Shown one piece after another: positions 4,855 through 45,715 of a stretch of DNA of 64,000 nucleotides. Position 1 is the stretch's first letter. Every line of letters starts with the position of its first letter. A program made the position numbers and the translations under genes. The notes beneath the pieces were generated by a model, which saw only the letters and a program-made list of their open reading frames with translations, did no database searches and was not told the origin of the DNA. Origin of the DNA: Natronococcus sp. CG52 (GTDB lineage: Archaea > Halobacteriota > Halobacteria > Halobacteriales > Natrialbaceae); NCBI RefSeq assembly GCF_023913515.1, contig NZ_CP099393.1, positions 62,001 through 126,000 of the forward strand, written 5' to 3'.

Positions 4855-7800
4855 ATGAGTGACAATCATACCGATTCGACGGCAGCGGAATCGCACATGA
4901 CCGACGAACCACCGACCGGTCACATCGACCGTCGGGACTATTTGCGGTACACGGGCACGCTCGCGGGCGGTTCGGTGATAGCCGGATACGCCACGCAACC
5001 CGCAGGGGCCAGCGGCGGGACGAGCAACGACGACTCCGAGCCCTTCGGGCCGACGAACCTGCGAGTGGAGTACGACCAAGACCCGAACAACGTGCTCCCC
5101 ACCGCGGGCGCATCGAATGACGCACTCGAGGCGCCGCGGTTTTCCTGGGAGGTGACAGGTCCGCGAGGCGCCGCCCAGTCGGCGTACCGCATCCTCGTTG
5201 CGGACAGTCGGGAGGCCCTCGAGCGCGGCGATGGCACCGTCTGGGACAGCGGCACGGTCGAATCCTCGCGGTCGGTCAACGTCCTGTACAACGGCGAGCC
5301 GCTCGATTCCGACACGACCTACTACTGGACCGTGCGGATCTGGGACGGCGACGAGGCGAGCGACTGGAGCGAGCCGGCGCAGTTCGTGACGGCACTTCCT
5401 CACGACGGCGAGCACTGGGAGGGCGAGTGGATAGGTCCCGACTACGGCGAGTGGGACGAGGACGACCCGATCGACTATGATTTCCTCGAGGAGGGCGACT
5501 ACGACGACCGTCCCGAACCGCTGCTGCGAAACGAGTTCGACCTCGAGAGGGAGGTCGAGGAGGCGAGGATTCATATCAGTGGTCTGGGATGTTACGAACT
5601 GTACCTCAACGGCGAGCGTGTTGGTGACCGCGTCCTCGAGCCCGCCCAGACGCAATATGACGAGCGGGTACTCTACTCGACGTACGACGTGACCGAGTAT
5701 CTGGCGAAGGAGACGAACGCTATCGGGGTCGCCTTAGGTCGCCTCCGCTTCGGCGAGATGGTCGCGGACAATGGCTCTTGGAGGTGGAGCCACGCTCCAT
5801 GGTGGAGTGATCCGCAACTGCTGGTCCAGCTGAACGTCGAGTTCGCCGACGGAACGAGCACGTCGATCGTCACTGACGACGACTGGCGAATGACCGACGG
5901 GCCGACGCAGTTCGACTCGCTGTTCGCCGGAGAGATATACGACGCCCGGGAGGAGAAACGGGGGTGGACGGAGCCGAACTACGACGACGGCGATTGGGAG
6001 ACGTCGCCGATCGCCGACGACCCCGACGCGGAGATTTCGCCCCAGCACGTCCAGCCGATGCGAGTGCGCGCCACCCTCGACCCCGTCGAGATCACCGAGC
6101 CCGAGGAGGGCGTCTACGTCGTCGACTTCGGACAGGTCATGACCGGCTGGGCGGAGTTGACCGTCGACGGCGAGGCGGGGACCGGAGTCACCGTCAGTTA
6201 CGGCGAGAAGCTCAACGACGACGGTACGGTAGACAACTCCAACTTCCTCGTTGCGGCCCCGATGCAACGGGACCACTACGTTCTCGAGGGCGACGGACCG
6301 GAGACCTGGGAGCCGAGTTACAGCTACAAGGGCTTCCGGTACGTGCAGGTCGAAGGCTACCCCGGCGAACCGAGCCCCGGCGACTTCGAGGCGAAGTACG
6401 TCTACACCGCCTTCGACGAGGGCGTCAAAAGCGGCTTCGAGTCCTCCAACGAACTGCTCAATCGGATCCACGAGAACACGTTGTGGGCGTACCGCAATAA
6501 CATGCAGGGCCTGCCGACGGACACCCCAAAACTCGAGAAGAACGGGTGGACCGGCGACGCCCAGCTGACCGCGGAGGCGGGGATCTACAACTACGACATG
6601 GCTCGGTTCTGGAGGAAGTGGCTCCGCGACTTCGCCGACGCCCAGCGCGAGGACGGCGAGGTCCCGACCGTCGTTCCTCACAACACTGAATACAGCATTC
6701 TCGGCTTCGAACCGAATTTCGGCGCCGTGCTGGGTCCCACGCCCGGTTGGGACGCGGCGTTCATCCTCATCCCGTGGTGGGTCTACCAGTACTACGGCGA
6801 CGAGCGGATCCTCGAGACGCACTACGAGGACTGGAAGCAGTACATCGACTGGATCCAGCAGTATTCCGAGGGAGACGTTCTTGAGGACCTTCCCGACCAG
6901 ATGTCGGGTGATGAAGAGGCTATCCGCACCTTCGAGGACAGCCACGTCCTCCCGGTCGGGCTCGGCGACTGGGGCGGTGCACCGCTGACCGACACGGACG
7001 ACGGATACGGCGGTAGCGGCGACGAGGTGCCGATCACCTCCACGGCCTACTACTACCGGTTCGCGAAGGCGCTCGCCGAGACCGCCGCGCTCATCGGCGA
7101 AGACGAGGAGGCCGCCGAGTGGGACGCCCTCGCCGAGGAGATTCGCGAGGACTTCAACGACGAGTTCCTTGATACGGAGCGGGGCTACTACCGGACCGGC
7201 CAGCACGAGGCGTACCTCCAGACCTCGAACCTCCTCCCGCTCGCGTTCGATATGGTTCCGGAGGAATACGAGGGCATCGTTGTCGAGAACCTCGTCGGGG
7301 ACGTGATGGAGACCCACGACGGCCACCTTAACACCGCGACACTCGGGACGAAGTACCTCCTTCCGGTCCTCACGGAGTACGGCCACCACGACGTCGCCTA
7401 CACGGTGGCGACGCAGACGGACTACCCCAGCTGGGGACTTTGGATCGAGGAGGGCCGGACGTCGCTGCTCGAGTTCTGGGAGCTCGACTCCCGCTCGTGG
7501 AACCACCACTTCCTCGGAGTGACCGACGAGTGGTTCTACAAGCACCTCGCGGGCATTCAGGTCGACGAACCCGGCTTCGAGCACGTCCGAATCGCCCCGA
7601 AGCCGGTCGGTGATCTCGAGTCGGCGAGCGGGAAAACCGATACCGTCAGGGGCGTCGTCGAGTCCAGTTGGGAACTCGTCGAGTCGCCCGGTGAGGGCCG
7701 GGGGATTCGTCTCGAGGTGACGATCCCCGGGAACGCGACGGCGACCGTCGAGATTCCGGCGCTCGGCGCCGAGCGGGCCCGAGTCCGGGAGAGCGGCACG

Positions 7801-22492: not shown

Positions 22493-24103
22493 ATGGGTAC
22501 TGACGACTCCGAGTCTTCTCGCCCTGACCAAGAGACTTCGGAGGACAAGAGAACGACACAATCGAGGCACTCATCAAATGCTTCCGATCCAGGGCCTTCG
22601 TCGGATCACTCGGATAGCGCTGATCGGGGTAACTCCGACGATCTGCCGAATAGTAACACTCGACCGGTCGAGTCTGATCGATCAGATACCGTGGACCGAA
22701 CGGACGATCGAAGCGAACCTCTCCCCTCTGAAAACGACCCGACCATGACAGCAACCGATGACGAGTCGTCATCGACCTCGGCATCTCCCACCGACGGATC
22801 GGACGATGATTCCCGATCGATCGAGGAAATGCTTCTGGAGTTCGATGATCAGAAGGGATTGATTCGCGAGCGATCGCTTCTCGATCCGAACTATATCGTT
22901 GAGGAGGATCGAATCGTCGGCCGTGACAGGCAACTTCAGGAAGTTACGAAGATGCTCCGGGTCGCACTCGGCGATAATCGACCACCGAATCTCTTCCTTT
23001 ATGGCCCCTCTGGAACCGGGAAATCGCTTATCACGAAAGCCGTATGCAAGAATATCAGCCGTATCTGCCGCTCTCGCGACATTCGCTTCGGGACGATCGA
23101 GGTCAACTGCCAGGACCTCGATACGCTTGGTGTTGCGGTTTACGAACTCGCCAGTTGCGCTGCGGAGGAGGCCGGGGTTAGCGTCGAAGTCCCGAAACAC
23201 GGCGTCGCAACGAAAGAAAAGTGGGACGAACTGTATCGGATCGTCAACGAGAATTTCGATTCTGTCGTCTTCGTCCTGGACGAACTCGACATGCTCGTGG
23301 GACGGCGAGATAAACAGGAACTGGCGTTCTCTCGGCTGCTCTATCAGTTGTCGCGCGCCGGTGCCAGCGACGATCTGACCGCGTACATCTCGGTTGTCGC
23401 GATCTCGAACGATACGAAGATGATGGAGTCGGTCGGTAGTCGTGCGCTGAGTTCGTTCACTCCGGAAGACGTCCACTTCGACGACTACGATGCTAATCAG
23501 TTGCAGGCTATCCTTCGTCGACGACAGGATGCCTTCTATGAGGGCGTCTTGGATGACGATGTTATTCCGTTAGCAGCTGCGTTTGCCGCCCAGACGCACG
23601 GTGACGCACGAAAGGCGATCGACCTGATGCGGGTCGCTGGTGAACTCGCCGAACGGGAAGGTAACGAACGGGTTCGTGAAAAGCACGTTCGGAGAGCGCA
23701 GGACAAGGTCGAGAAAAACCGCGTTCTCGAGGTCGTTCGGGGGATCAGTACACAGAAGAAGCTCTGTCTGTACGCAACGGCGGCTGTCGCGACAGAAACC
23801 GACGACGGGACGGCTCGCAGTACAATCGGGTACCGCGTCTACCAGTTCTTGACCGATTCTATTGACGCCGACCAGTATCACCAGGAAACCTACGTCAATA
23901 AGATGAAGGAACTGACGACATACTCGCTGGTCGACTTTGAGCGTCGGAGTCACGGACCGAGCTCAGGAATGTTTCTCGAGTTCCAGTTTGGCGAACGACC
24001 GGACACAATTCTCGAGACGCTTCGCGAGGACTCTCGTCTCGAGTCTGTCTCCACCGAAGAAGTACAATCAGTCGTACGAGCGCAACTCCACAATAGGAGA
24101 TAA
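22493..24103 (+). CDS. orc1: Orc1/Cdc6 replication initiator
   Basis: The 536-residue protein has a low-complexity Ser/Asp-rich N-terminal extension (about residues 1-110), then an AAA+ core with Walker A GPSGTGKS (171-178), Walker B VVFVLDELD (D263, E264) and sensor-1-like VVAISNDTK. A C-terminal winged helix (TYSLVDFERRSHGPSSGMFLEF) binds DNA. It opens the origin and loads the helicase in haloarchaeal replicons. Four iterons lie on each side of the gene, a classic arrangement for a cognate initiator. The long disordered N-terminus is unusual compared with chromosomal homologues and suits a plasmid-type initiator. Confidence 0.93.
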   Translation: MGTDDSESSRPDQETSEDKRTTQSRHSSNASDPGPSSDHSDSADRGNSDDLPNSNTRPVESDRSDTVDRTDDRSEPLPSENDPTMTATDDESSSTSASPTDGSDDDSRSIEEMLLEFDDQKGLIRERSLLDPNYIVEEDRIVGRDRQLQEVTKMLRVALGDNRPPNLFLYGPSGTGKSLITKAVCKNISRICRSRDIRFGTIEVNCQDLDTLGVAVYELASCAAEEAGVSVEVPKHGVATKEKWDELYRIVNENFDSVVFVLDELDMLVGRRDKQELAFSRLLYQLSRAGASDDLTAYISVVAISNDTKMMESVGSRALSSFTPEDVHFDDYDANQLQAILRRRQDAFYEGVLDDDVIPLAAAFAAQTHGDARKAIDLMRVAGELAEREGNERVREKHVRRAQDKVEKNRVLEVVRGISTQKKLCLYATAAVATETDDGTARSTIGYRVYQFLTDSIDADQYHQETYVNKMKELTTYSLVDFERRSHGPSSGMFLEFQFGERPDTILETLREDSRLESVSTEEVQSVVRAQLHNRR

Positions 24104-24169: not shown

Positions 24170-24483
24170 CACCCCTCTATCGATGTGTGCTGAACGATTG
24201 GTATCATCTCACGATCGAGACCACAAACAAATGGGTAGATGATGTTTCATTTGAGCTACTAATGGGTTATGGATTTTTTCATTATTTGAAATGTGAGACT
24301 CCTCTATCGAAGTGTATTTGACCGCGTTAGCCGGTGTGCTGCTGCGTTTGATCTTTTTGGACCCCATTATTCCTACGTGTCGAACTGATTAAAGAGCGTG
24401 AAAGTTAATGATTTGCTCCGGATACCCCTCTATCGATGTGTTCTGTACTCCCCTAATTACGACCCACCCCTCTATCGATGTGT
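24170..24483 (+). repeat. Origin iterons, right group (four copies)
   Basis: Direct copies of the 19-bp iteron lie at 24170-24188, 24297-24315 (GAAGTGT variant), 24423-24441 and 24465-24483. All four point the same way, whereas the left group has both orientations. The stretch between is A/T-rich and includes TGGATTTTTTCATTATTTG near 24272, a possible unwinding element. With the left group, this makes eight iterons flanking orc1. Confidence 0.85.
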
Positions 24484-24490
24484 TAGGTCC

Positions 24491-24706
24491 ACAGGTGGAA
24501 CAGGCTGAGTGCCTCGGGGTCAAGTCCCGAGGCGGTTCACTCGGTGAACCGTTTCGGCGTCAGGTGGGTCGAGAGAGCGACGCTCTCTCGTCATACTGCA
24601 AGACCTCTGGTCTTGCATAGATCACAAACGCGAAGCGTTTGCTCACTCACGGAAGACTGGAGATCTTCCGAACAACCCTGAGGTACTCCGGCCTGCTCTG
24701 CCTGTA
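24491..24706. mobile_element. MITE-like element with terminal inverted repeats and six tandem hairpins
   Basis: The ends are imperfect inverted repeats: ACAGGTGGAACAGGCTGAG (from 24491) pairs with the reverse of 24673-24706. Between them are six consecutive perfect or near-perfect hairpins at 24512-24532, 24534-24550, 24570-24590, 24597-24617, 24625-24641 and 24650-24670, each with a 7-10 bp stem. No protein is encoded. A single matching end occurs inverted at about 43488-43530. The element ends only 40 bases before tfb, so it may influence that gene. It could instead be a structured RNA gene. Confidence 0.6.
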
Positions 24707-24713
24707 GCACGAG

Positions 24714-24719
24714 GGTTTA
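24714..24719 (+). promoter_or_regulatory. TATA-like element of tfb
   Basis: GGTTTAA centred on 24714-24719 lies about 28-33 bases before the tfb ATG, directly after the hairpin element. This spacing predicts a leaderless transcript. Confidence 0.5.
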
Positions 24720-24746
24720 AGACTGTCTGGGCGCGGAACTACTTGC

Positions 24747-25703
24747 ATGGAGCGCTATACGCGCCAGCGCGAATCAAAATCAACCGAAAAAGAGCAAGAG
24801 TCCACGGATGAACAAACATGCGATGAATGTGGCTCGAGCGCTCTTGCGACAAGCGAGGATCAGGGTGAACTCGTCTGTGAGGACTGTGGACTAGTTATCG
24901 AAACGACGAACATCGATCGAGGTCCAGAGTGGCGAGCCTTTGACCACTCAGAACGGAACAGCAAATCCCGTGTCGGGGCGCCGACCACCAAAACGATGCA
25001 CGACAAGGGCCTCACAACGACGATCGACTGGAAAAACAAAGACGCCTATGGACGGTCCCTGTCTTCGGAGAAGCGCGGCCAGATGCAGCGCCTGCGCAAG
25101 TGGCAGGAGCGCATCCGAACGAAAGATGCCGGCGAGCGCAACCTGCAGTTCGCACTGAGCGAAACCGACCGGATGGCCTCGGCGCTGGGCGTGCCACGAT
25201 CAGTTCGGGAAGTCGCGAGCGTCGTCTATCGGCGGGCGCTGAACGAAGATCTCATCCGCGGGCGTTCCATCGAAGGGGTTGCGACGAGCTGTCTGTACGC
25301 CGCTTGCCGACAGGAAGGTATCCCGCGCAGTCTGGAAGAGGTGGCCGACGTCTCTCGAGTGGAGCGGAAAGAAATTGGGCGGACGTACCGCTATATCGCT
25401 CAGGAACTCTCCCTCGAGATGAAACCAGTCGATCCCAAGGAATACGTCCCCAGATTCTGCTCCGAGCTCGGCTCAAGTGAAGAGGTTCAGTCGAAAGCCA
25501 GACAAATCATTGATACCACTGCAGAACAGGGGCTGCTCTCTGGAAAGTCTCCAACAGGGTATGCCGCCGCTGCAATTTATGCTGCTTCACTCCTGTGCAA
25601 CGAGAAGAAAACTCAGCGTGAGGTCGCAGACGTTGCGCAAGTAACCGAAGTGACGATTCGGAACCGGTACCAAGAGCAGATCGAAGCAATGGGCATTCAT
25701 TAG
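24747..25703 (+). CDS. tfb: Transcription initiation factor TFB
   Basis: The 318-residue protein has a zinc ribbon (C25, C28, C44, C47 in TCDECGS...VCEDCG), a B-reader region ([21 protein letters not shown] split by helix breaks), and two cyclin repeats (about 120-205 and 215-305), including [19 protein letters not shown] and [21 protein letters not shown] bridges TATA-bound TBP and RNA polymerase. Haloarchaea keep several paralogues, often on plasmids near origins. A second, truncated TFB segment survives at 45.7-45.9 kb in this window. Confidence 0.95.
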
Positions 25704-42335: not shown

Positions 42336-43481
42336 ATGACTCGTTGGAGTCCGGCCATGTTCACCCTTGGAGGGAGACACGTCATAATTACCCTCGGAGG
42401 TCTATACATCGCACTTGCCGTCGGATGGGCGCTTGTCCAAGCCTCTTTGGGGACGTTTCTTCCAAGTATTCTAGTTGGTTCTTCTTTTATAGGCGGTTTT
42501 GGTTTCATCCTTTTTGTTGGCGGATATAGATTGCCACAGACTGATATTCATCCAAATTTTTATTCTTTTATTGCAGTTCGCTGTCTCGGTGGACTTGGAC
42601 TGATAATTCTCATCCTTATACTCTACGAACTCCAACCCGCTGCAGGGATTGAAAATATTGACCGATCTGTTCTGATACTCACAGGATTCGGCACTGCTGC
42701 CGGCTTCGGTGTGGGTAGATATGATGCGCAGGCAAAATCACGTGCCCGTGAAATCGAACTCCAAAACCAGAAACTACAGCAAATACAGGACGAGCTCGAA
42801 GAATCGAACAAGCGGCTCGAGCATTTCGCCTATGCTGCATCCCACGACTTACAGGAACCCCTGCGGATGATCTCGAGCTACCTGCAACTCATTGAGAATC
42901 GCTATGCTAATGAACTCGACGAGGATGGTGAGGAGTTCCTCGAGTACGCGATCGACGGCTCGAAGCGAATGAAAGAGATGATTGACGGACTACTCGAATA
43001 CTCGCGCGTCAATACACAAGGGAAACCGCTCGAACCTGTCGATCTCAACGACATAGTTACCGACGCTCGCAAAAACCTCGAGATACAGATTAGGGAAAGC
43101 AACGCTGATATCGAATGTGATGAGTTGCCGCGTGTTAACGGTGATGCGAGCCAATTACGCCAGCTTTTCCAAAACCTCTTTTCTAATGCGATTGAGTACA
43201 GCGGTGACCAGCCTCCACGAGTCGATGTCTTTGCCGAACGAACTGGCGAGAAGTGGAAACTCTCGGTCCGTGACGACGGCATCGGGATTGACCCAAAGGA
43301 CCAAGATCACATCTTCGATGTGTTCGAACGACTCCATAGCCACGAAGAGCACGCTGGAACCGGCATCGGACTGGCGCTCTGCAAGCGAATCACCGAACGT
43401 CACGACGGTGAGATCTGGGTTGACTCCGAACCTGGTGAGGGTGCAACGTTCTCGTTTACGCTACCGGCTGTGACTGCGTAA
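42336..43481 (+). CDS. Membrane-bound sensor histidine kinase
   Basis: The 381-residue protein has a four-helix membrane sensor (about residues 14-125), a coiled coil (AREIELQNQKLQQIQDELEE, about 137-157), and a kinase core. Phospho-acceptor H170 lies in FAYAASHDLQEPLRM, the N box is FQNLFSNAIEYSG, and the G boxes are DDGIGIDP and GTGIGLALCKRI. A start at 42357 (MFTLGGRHV) is equally possible. No response regulator is adjacent, so it is an orphan kinase. The stop is directly followed by an isolated end of the hairpin MITE. Confidence 0.9.
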   Translation: MTRWSPAMFTLGGRHVIITLGGLYIALAVGWALVQASLGTFLPSILVGSSFIGGFGFILFVGGYRLPQTDIHPNFYSFIAVRCLGGLGLIILILILYELQPAAGIENIDRSVLILTGFGTAAGFGVGRYDAQAKSRAREIELQNQKLQQIQDELEESNKRLEHFAYAASHDLQEPLRMISSYLQLIENRYANELDEDGEEFLEYAIDGSKRMKEMIDGLLEYSRVNTQGKPLEPVDLNDIVTDARKNLEIQIRESNADIECDELPRVNGDASQLRQLFQNLFSNAIEYSGDQPPRVDVFAERTGEKWKLSVRDDGIGIDPKDQDHIFDVFERLHSHEEHAGTGIGLALCKRITERHDGEIWVDSEPGEGATFSFTLPAVTA

Positions 43482-43487
43482 ACTGCC

Positions 43488-43530
43488 TTGGGACTTGACC
43501 CCGAGGCACTCGGCCTACTCCGCCTGTAGA
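43488..43530 (-). repeat. Solo end of the hairpin MITE family
   Basis: Read on the minus strand, CTACAGGCGGAGTAGGCCGAG continues into GTGCCTCGGGGTCAAGTCCC, matching the left end of the element at 24491-24532 with few mismatches. The hairpins that follow in the full element are absent here. Confidence 0.6.
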
Positions 43531-44333: not shown

Positions 44334-45715
44334 ACTACCCCACCCTACTTCGCTCACCCTGACGGGTTCGCTCGTGGAGGGTGGGGCTTGTCCATGAACT
44401 CGGCTTCAAACCCTTCCGGGTGGGCGGTAAATCCACCACTTGGCATCACTGTTCCAGACTTTAGGGCAAGCTGACTGTTGCCCGTCCGCCGAGACGACTG
44501 TTGGCCCCGACGGACATACCGCATCCCGATGTTCTTCGCCGCGTTATAATCCGCGTTCGCCTCCGACTCGCACTTCACACAGTGGAAGTCGTTGCGTGCC
44601 GGGCGATTCTCGTCTGCCGTGAATCCACATTCGGCGCACCGTTTCGACGTGTACGCTGAACCGACTTGCTTCACCGAAACCCCCACCGCTTCGGCCTTGT
44701 ACTCCACCTGTTCGTACAGCGTTCGGAACGCCCACTTGTGACCCCACGACGCGCCTGTGCGATCGCGGATATCGGTCAGGTCCTCGAACGCGATTACGTC
44801 GCACTCATATCGGAGTGCTTCATCTACAATCGCGTTCGAGGCTCTATGTAGCACGTCGCGAACGTAACGGAGTTCGCGCCCACTCGACTGTTCGAGCGTT
44901 CGGTGGGCGCTTCGCGTCCCGGTCTGTTGGAGTCCGGCGCGTACTTTTTCGAACTCGCGGAGGTTGTGGGTTAACTCCCGCCCACTGAAAAAGTAGGCGG
45001 TACTGGTGACAGCAAGGTTTTCGATGCCGAGGTCAACCCCGAGGACTGTTCCGTCCTCGGCGGTGTTCCTCTCAGCATCGTTCTTCGGTCGGCGGAAGCC
45101 GATATGCAAGAAGTAGTCGCCGTCACGGGCAGTGAGTGTGCTTTCTGTGACGCTCCACGTGTCCGATTCGAGGTACTGTCGCTGGTAGCCATCGTCGGAT
45201 TCGGGAAGATCAAGCGGACACCGGACTCTGCTCTCCGTTGTGGAGAGAGAAACGGTGTCGTCCTCAAACAACGTCATCGTCCGGCTGTCGTACTTCACCG
45301 TGGGTGCGGTAAAGGTAGGCTTGCTCGCCTTCTTGTCTTTAGATAGGCGTTCGATACAGCCGGTAATGGCTTGTGCAGCTTGGTGGGTGGCGAGAATCGC
45401 GTGCTGACTACCAAGGTCCGTTTGAGCGCGTACGTCGTCGTAGGCGAGGGGTTGCACGTCGCTTTTGGCGTTGCATTTTTCCCACGCCATATCAGTGGCG
45501 ATCTGGCAACCACGCTTCCACTCGGAGATGGTCTCTTCGAGAAGGTTGCGTTGCTCGTCAGTAACCTCAAGATGAGTGATTGCCGTCCGTCGCACGTAGT
45601 CGTCTGCCACAACTTCAATGTGGTCGTGAGGCTACTTATAGATCGGTGTTTGTAAACTATACGAACGCGCTCCTCCCTACTCACTCGCTTTGCTCGTTCC
45701 TTGAGGAAGGGGACT
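44334..45715 (-). mobile_element. IS1341-type (IS200/IS605-derived) element with tnpB only
   Basis: The element contains tnpB but no tnpA transposase, so it cannot move alone. Its right end, just past the tnpB stop, is a GC-rich imperfect palindrome (CACCCTCCACGAGCG / AGGGTGAGCGAAGTAGGG) ending GTTGAC. This is where the omega/re RNA used by TnpB is expected. The left end is placed near 45660-45715 from the loss of TFB similarity. It lies exactly between a truncated TVP38 gene and a TFB fragment. Confidence 0.65.
44354..45610 (-). CDS. tnpB: TnpB RNA-guided nuclease, intact
   Basis: The 418-residue protein has an N-terminal helix-turn-helix-like region, a split RuvC fold with D193 (GVDLGIEN), E276 (IAFEDLT) and D354 (ADYNAAKN), and a zinc ribbon C325, C328, C344, C347 (CAECG, CVKCE). 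All catalytic residues are present and the frame is unbroken. TnpB proteins cut DNA guided by an RNA derived from the element's right end and help retain the element. The C-terminal tail (GTVMPSGGFTAHPEG) overlaps the expected guide-RNA scaffold. It is the only undamaged mobile-element protein in this part of the window besides the IS6 transposase. Confidence 0.9.
   Translation of the reverse strand: MADDYVRRTAITHLEVTDEQRNLLEETISEWKRGCQIATDMAWEKCNAKSDVQPLAYDDVRAQTDLGSQHAILATHQAAQAITGCIERLSKDKKASKPTFTAPTVKYDSRTMTLFEDDTVSLSTTESRVRCPLDLPESDDGYQRQYLESDTWSVTESTLTARDGDYFLHIGFRRPKNDAERNTAEDGTVLGVDLGIENLAVTSTAYFFSGRELTHNLREFEKVRAGLQQTGTRSAHRTLEQSSGRELRYVRDVLHRASNAIVDEALRYECDVIAFEDLTDIRDRTGASWGHKWAFRTLYEQVEYKAEAVGVSVKQVGSAYTSKRCAECGFTADENRPARNDFHCVKCESEANADYNAAKNIGMRYVRRGQQSSRRTGNSQLALKSGTVMPSGGFTAHPEGFEAEFMDKPHPPRANPSG

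Follow-up and report, generated by a model that had tools for sequence, protein, structure and literature searches.

The six-hairpin stretch lying before tfb in Natronococcus sp. CG52 is very probably a pair of oppositely oriented palindrome-associated transposable elements (PATEs) that meet at their right ends, of which PATE B carries an SMR-A-like cassette; both would be derived from an IS605 transposon and moved in trans by TnpA. The window, that is, the whole stretch of DNA analysed, is 64 kb long, and the feature with both of its target pentanucleotides occupies 24488-24708 (221 bp); the contig that bears it is the third of the genome and 378 kb long, the genome totalling 4.74 Mb. Genome G007, placed in the same genus, is Natronococcus occultus SP4, with 3,089/3,089 bases identical to NC_019976.1, in agreement with a Natronococcus host. 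As shown in Table 1, all six of the stem-loops that the first-pass annotation had counted within 160 bases are present at 24511-24670, and the absence of a coding frame that it reported holds as well, the sole ORF across the stretch being a mechanical one of 70 aa. The imperfect terminal inverted repeats described there are likewise real, the outer ends pairing in the folds over about 30 bp; they are the left ends of two PATEs abutting in opposite orientation. Single PATE copies, which start with AGG and end with GGTTCAC or GTTTAC, have no terminal inverted repeats. PATEs without a cassette measure 48 or 49 bp, too short for a transposase, and the window element contains no gene. The palindrome of PATE B is imperfect, with CCTCAGGG on one side and CCTGACGCCGAAACGG on the other, and this copy may therefore be decayed.

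Table 1. Features of the PATE pair, of its cassette and of the neighbouring DNA (window positions)
Feature	Position	Strand	Remark
orc1/cdc6, left neighbour	22493..24103	+	Cdc6_lid, Cdc6_C
Four origin-box-like repeats after orc1/cdc6	starts 24174, 24301, 24427, 24469
Target pentanucleotide TCCAC, left-end side of PATE A	24488..24492	+	outside element; role from Natrinema empty site
PATE A, insert-free terminal-only IS605 derivative of 48 bp	24493..24540	+	length equals Natrinema net insertion
PATE A hairpin	24511-24533		single palindrome
A/B junction palindrome GGTTCACTCGGTGAACC	24534-24550	.	made by abutting right ends of A and B
Spacer between A and B, 3 bp	24541-24543
PATE B, 160 bp	24544..24703	-	49-bp PATE plus 111-bp cassette in its palindrome
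SMR-A-like cassette, 111 bp	24565..24675	.	outer hairpin-pair module with inner module nested in it
Hairpin 1	24570-24590	.	outer module
Inner hairpin-pair module, 53 bp	24594..24646	.	in linker of outer module; row L001, copy of this stretch
Hairpin 2	24598-24616	.	inner module
Hairpin 3	24625-24641	.	inner module
Hairpin 4	24650-24670	.	outer module
Target pentanucleotide GCTAC of PATE B	24704..24708	-	TCTAC variant
TTTAAGAC, probable tfb promoter box	24716..24723	+	outside element; homologues L114, L115, L116
tfb (TFIIB)	24747..25703	+	PF00382 4.9e-51, PF08271
PATE C, complete 48-bp copy without insert	43478..43525	-
Target TCTAC of PATE C	43526-43530	-

Folding and conservation of the stems

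The RNA fold of a 237-nt stretch reached -125.1 kcal/mol (z -7.74) and its DNA fold -61.8 (z -5.96), with 0/200 shuffles as good in each case. When perfect hairpins with arms of at least 7 and loops of 3-8 were counted, 48 were found in the 64-kb window, 5 of them inside the 221 bp, which is the densest 221-bp stretch of the window. Covariation of the stems, which the first-pass annotation had proposed to look for, is found in the cassettes, of which 27 of the 47 distinct two-hairpin examples were aligned: pairing holds in 98.7% of cells among 14 cassettes of 54 bp and in 99.1% among 13 cassettes of 58 bp, while cells changed on both sides number 24 and 45, respectively, against shuffled means of 8.0 and 17.1 (0/500 as high). 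The number of pairs with both-side changes in the 54-bp set is not outstanding (272/500 shuffles as high), nor are further pair types (218/500 and 500/500 shuffles as high); the search pattern fixes the outer pairs of stem 1, and the covariation rests on the inner pairs of stem 1 and on stem 2 only. The stems are thus kept.

The loops of 107 perfect triloop hairpins, read on the cassette strand, are GNA in 42, TNC in 39 and other in 26. GNA triloops form very stable DNA mini-hairpins. Hairpins outside recognised cassettes lean towards GNA/TNC too (117/255, partly perhaps unrecognised cassettes), so only the strand symmetry, not the GNA/TNC enrichment, is used as an argument; loops alike on both strands point to a DNA palindrome that can be flipped, unlike an RNA with a preferred loop.

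These observations bear on the first of the rival explanations, that the six stem-loops belong to a structured non-coding RNA, either an sRNA or a TnpB omegaRNA guide, acting on tfb or elsewhere. The strong fold and the compensatory changes in the cassette stems agree with it, as does the transcription of PATE and IS605 ends that PMC10544981 and PMC12558985 describe for some haloarchaea; it is nevertheless improbable, because Rfam gave 0 matches at the gathering threshold in the window, including no omegaRNA match, and because the loops are strand-symmetric. Besides, PATE A keeps just the last part of the tnpB-side end, which is probably too little for a guide scaffold, and A, B and the cassette are also found apart, the unit as a whole not being conserved. 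An omegaRNA or another RNA is thus rejected as the primary nature of the stretch, which may even so be transcribed. Where the first-pass annotation had offered either an unusual MITE or a structured RNA, mobility stands, whereas neither a single MITE, since the halves occur alone, nor RNA as the primary nature does, given the Rfam result and the loops. Read as a PATE pair, the striking structure is accounted for without a new RNA or promoter.

Parent transposon and copies of the element

The C-terminus of an IS200-type transposase was found directly upstream of this PATE end at five loci, and complete IS605 copies with divergent tnpA/tnpB and sharp limits in alignment are present in related haloarchaea. 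The parent has GTGAACCGCCTCGGGGTCAAGCCCCGAGGCTTCCCG at one end and ACGGCCTTCACCCTCGGGGTCAAGCCCCGAGGCACTCGGCCTGCTCCGCCTGTAGA at the other; the ends of PATEs A, B and C match both ends of four IS605 copies (L143, L144, L145, L147), and the 48-bp form corresponds to both parent ends merged over the common palindrome CCTCGGGGTCAAGCCCCGAGG. The parent TnpA is a Y1_Tnp protein (PF01797, 4.5e-37). Parent-type tnpA is matched in 7/9 genomes of the genus and has 0 matches in the host genome, so the host copies are probably stranded unless TnpA is supplied by a tnpA from outside.

The size and target of the element were read from one locus that is orthologous in three Natrinema genomes: Natrinema hispanicum CDM_6 has a 48-bp PATE there, in N. 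limicola the same flanks are 48 bp closer together and form the empty site GTCTAC^ACGTACGG, and N. hispanicum DSM 18328 has a 2,081-bp IS605 with identical ends and 2,033 bp more between them. From this comparison, and at the Natrinema locus only, the element is 48 bp long and inserts 3' of TCTAC without target duplication, a single site being occupied by either the mini or the full form. The empty, mini and full states of this locus therefore fix the size and target of this IS605 family; an earlier delimitation of a 53-bp element from GTGAACC to TAGA was rejected, the empty site giving 48 bp. For a second N. hispanicum copy (L198), no orthologous empty site was found.

With the mini and full forms seen as alternatives at the Natrinema locus, we infer that each PATE would have arisen by fusion of IS605-type ends across the common palindrome after loss of tnpA and tnpB. 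By analogy with IS200/IS605 biology, the mover would be a parent-type Y1 TnpA supplied in trans and working on single strands; after binding the palindrome, it would cleave on the 3' side of a pentanucleotide like TCTAC and join the 48 bp there without target duplication, the insertion point being taken from the Natrinema locus. A second rival, less probable still than an RNA, is that of REP/BIME-like repeats whose mobility depends on a domesticated Y1 protein (RAYT) instead of an IS605 transposase: short palindromes in opposite orientation and a Y1-related parent would suit it, but a genuine transposon with tnpA and tnpB has these same ends, and its mini and full forms share one Natrinema site.

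A copy search with a 229-bp stretch as query across 61 genomes, such as the first-pass annotation had suggested, returned further copies, with 14 family matches in the host genome and matches in 49/61 genomes; the lack of copies that it had named as part of a refutation was thus not observed. The matches listed form two separately occurring blocks, query 1-60 and query 60-224, of which the first is the reverse complement of the short element and the second the long version of the same element; among these listed matches, the whole unit is spanned only at the window's own locus, and a single weak match (71%, query 2-108, in genome G012) crosses the junction. Fifty-nine distinct right ends were collected from loci of many haloarchaea, with element lengths of at most 50 bp in 24, about 105 bp in 11, about 155 bp in 10 and other values in 3, the remaining 11 lacking a recognised left part. 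The five bases adjoining the right end are TCTAC in 53/59, an inflated figure because the pattern that yielded 30 of these loci held four of the five bases. The end pattern was matched in 88/121 genomes of the family, and its reversed control in 0; there were 0 matches to haloviruses in phage records, and 0 matches in IMG/VR for two exact patterns, which is weak evidence of absence, the patterns being exact. The mobility that the first-pass annotation favoured is accordingly borne out by a multi-copy family, a transposase-bearing parent and a clean empty site elsewhere.

What had been taken for a second, isolated end at 43488-43530 is in fact a complete 48-bp copy with its target, at 43478-43530 (PATE C, Table 1). 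No empty sites were found for PATE C, and none for the A/B pair, whose flanks in the other 8 genomes of the genus are rearranged or too diverged; for two other copies of the host genome, no empty site was found either, the flanking genes matching and the intergenic parts differing. A histidine kinase ORF (42336-43481) ends inside PATE C, with its TAA stop (43479-43481) coming from the element, and the protein may have been cut short or had its end replaced by this copy. At a distance of 0.8 kb from PATE C, the minus strand carries a tnpB (44354-45610) that belongs to another IS605/IS1341 type; the possibility that the element is an end of this tnpB was rejected, as the surroundings of the gene are without ends of this PATE family.

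Origin repeats and the probable tfb promoter

The PATE pair is located between the origin-like repeats that follow orc1/cdc6 and the tfb gene. In Natribaculum origins of the same type, a fifth origin-like repeat follows at 43 bp from the start of the fourth (L262 5294, L263 5337); in the window, the fourth repeat is followed after four bases by the target of PATE A, and no fifth repeat is seen (24469-24492). At the same origin junction, genome G001 of the same genus has a PATE in the orientation of A which, unlike A, contains a cassette. The surroundings of the Natribaculum origin hold further PATE-like remnants, one of them cassette-bearing (L263, about 5560-5650; L262, about 4860-4895), and on this account the replication region seems to gather such elements.

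The probable promoter box TTTAAGAC sits 31 to 24 bases before the tfb ATG at 24747. In three tfb homologues of the genus (L114, L115, L116), the box recurs, unchanged or slightly altered, and the bases between it and the ATG are similar, but the sequence beyond the box is different; transcription of tfb would therefore most likely begin close to or at the ATG and so not within the element. L114 has TCTAC and the first few element bases at the same place, perhaps a remnant. PATE B would most likely have altered only DNA farther upstream of the tfb promoter. As to the proposal of the first-pass annotation that the stretch may form the upstream region of tfb, a role in the core promoter is unlikely with the conserved box outside the element, and the element was rejected as a tfb leader for the same reason.

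A third rival, very improbable, holds that the stretch is part of a plasmid replication origin, or a tfb regulatory site, that merely resembles PATEs. Its position between the orc1/cdc6 origin repeats and tfb, together with the PATE at the same origin junction of G001, is in its favour; against this, the orthologous Natribaculum origin continues with a fifth repeat and no PATE, the tfb homologues have the promoter box without the element, and the family occurs in most of the genomes searched (49/61). Under the preferred reading as a PATE pair, PATE A would have entered beside the outermost origin repeat at TCCAC, and PATE B would have entered at GCTAC on the opposite strand, next to the tfb promoter; before or after this insertion, PATE B would have gained at its palindrome tip the 111-bp SMR-A-like cassette, in which the linker of one hairpin-pair module holds another such module.

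The last rival, one MITE that has long terminal inverted repeats and is mobilised by a DDE transposase, can be dismissed almost with certainty and was rejected, for although some 30 bp of the outer ends can pair, each half is found alone elsewhere without such repeats, the Natrinema site has no target duplication, the parent is Y1/IS605, and among the matches listed from the 61 genomes only the window locus spans the whole unit.

Modular cassettes

According to the excerpted text of PMC3119063, the PATEs of Haloquadratum walsbyi (ISHwa23 and HqIRS46 forms) are 52-bp terminal-only derivatives of IS605-type transposons, with a target oligonucleotide outside the element; a literature search returned no description of PATEs and SMRs fuller than this one. 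As far as that text goes, the Haloquadratum PATEs resemble those of the window in consisting of two fused IS605 ends around one palindrome, at about 50 bp, in the lack of target duplication, in the adjacent target oligonucleotide and in a core deletion between direct repeats; the window PATEs differ in host group and sequence, in a parent that has both tnpA and tnpB, in the target TCTAC, and in the abutting of two copies in opposite orientation. The same text describes SMR-A small mobile repeats (HqIRS42/43/55) of about 110 bp that insert into PATE/IS605 palindromes (104/192 nested insertions). By description, the window cassette is like SMR-A as portrayed there in its length of about 110 bp, in having no transposase and no target duplication, and in its location in a near-terminal PATE/IS605 palindrome; it differs in being composed of two nested modules that also occur singly. 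The window pair is a fresh case of PATE and probably of SMR-A, mobile DNA that is ordinary for salt-loving archaea. Less known is that SMR-like cassettes are modular, order-wide and found inside tnpA, and the surprise lies more in these modular, self-nesting cassettes than in the window pair.

In copies longer than 50 bp, a cassette of the form TGGTTCGAGA..TCTCGTCATCACGGAAGA..TCTTCCGAACGA is present at the palindrome tip, GGGGTCAAG^CCCC; the window cassette, at 111 bp, carries no gene. Insertion without target duplication is seen in palindromes, at GTCAAG^CCCC, and in tnpA genes with and without cassette. The base before the cassette is G in 56/60, and the base after it is C in 48/48 with a recognised right end, a count that leaves out the 12/60 cassettes without a recognisable one. 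Set beside the prominent inverted terminal repeats that mark SMR-A, the termini are TGGGTCG / CGAACAA in the window copy (5/7 pairs by eye) and TGGTTCG / CGAACGA in other copies (6/7 pairs by eye).

The 47 distinct two-hairpin cassettes have lengths of 54 (14), 56 (5), 57 (2), 58 (13), 59 (1), 60 (9) and 62 (3) bp. In 15/17 distinct rows of the long form, the TCATCA linker holds another two-hairpin unit, 51-57 bp in length, the remaining two rows (L237, L255) being pattern overruns. Single modules, of 54-62 and 51 bp, are found as well, both within tnpA genes and away from transposons. SMR-A strongly prefers IS605/PATE palindromes; the present cassettes sit in them in 23/30 of a family sample and in 7/30 of an order sample, both drawn by a cassette pattern and not by PATE ends, and by different patterns, the family one requiring the two-hairpin form; among the 7 family rows classed as "other", L181 was kept in that class although its left flank looks like a decayed palindrome, its right end not being recognised. 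With no more than 7/30 of the order sample in such positions, the cassettes form a wider family than the label "PATE attackers" would suggest.

Cassettes were found in 7/16 distinct near-complete tnpA copies, 18 distinct rows having been reduced by two that are partial or misaligned (L161, L180); the tnpA-borne loci are L308 (2148-2780), L293, L106, L153, L218, L219, L013 and L085. The insertion sites are codon 22 (5 copies), codon 52 (5) and codon 69 (1), and all 11 inserts are 51 or 54 bp long; the 51-bp insert after codon 22 of some copies has, by eye, the same make-up as the inner unit. Five of the 7 cassette-bearing genes gain one or two stop codons from their inserts; in L013, there is no insert stop, but a frameshift elsewhere; and the tnpA of N. 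hispanicum DSM 18328, with two inserts, can be read without a stop over 210 codons, beginning at a GTG. The inserts occupy three sites, too few to infer selection for keeping the frame. Rickettsia palindromic elements are likewise short palindromic DNA of a length divisible by three inside protein genes. The cassettes in tnpA differ from them in being archaeal, in lying in the transposase of a related mobile element and in mostly bringing a stop codon.

Taken jointly, these features allow a tentative reading, possible though on balance doubtful, in which hairpin-pair modules of 51-62 bp, with two perfect stems and GNA/TNC triloops, would form a separate order-wide class of mobile DNA. Such modules would insert without target duplication, mostly between G and C, into palindrome tips, into each other's linkers (the 110-bp SMR-A being a module inside a module) and, at lengths divisible by three, into the IS605 transposase gene, whose frame they can leave intact; their movement would be that of folded single strands, via some further enzyme, and they would act as a brake on IS605. 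In the excerpted text of PMC3119063, most insertions lie outside the transposase ORF, SMR-A is not resolved into nested hairpin-pair modules, and its mobilisation is called enigmatic; with modules, junctions and nested order defined, this movement becomes testable.

Several stand-alone cassettes (L066, L080, L081, L163, L164, L168-L170) have a common right flank like CAGnGTAAAAG, and in L066 and L080 a gene on the opposite strand seems, by eye, to have its 3' end immediately before this flank, as if the hairpins trailed a terminator.
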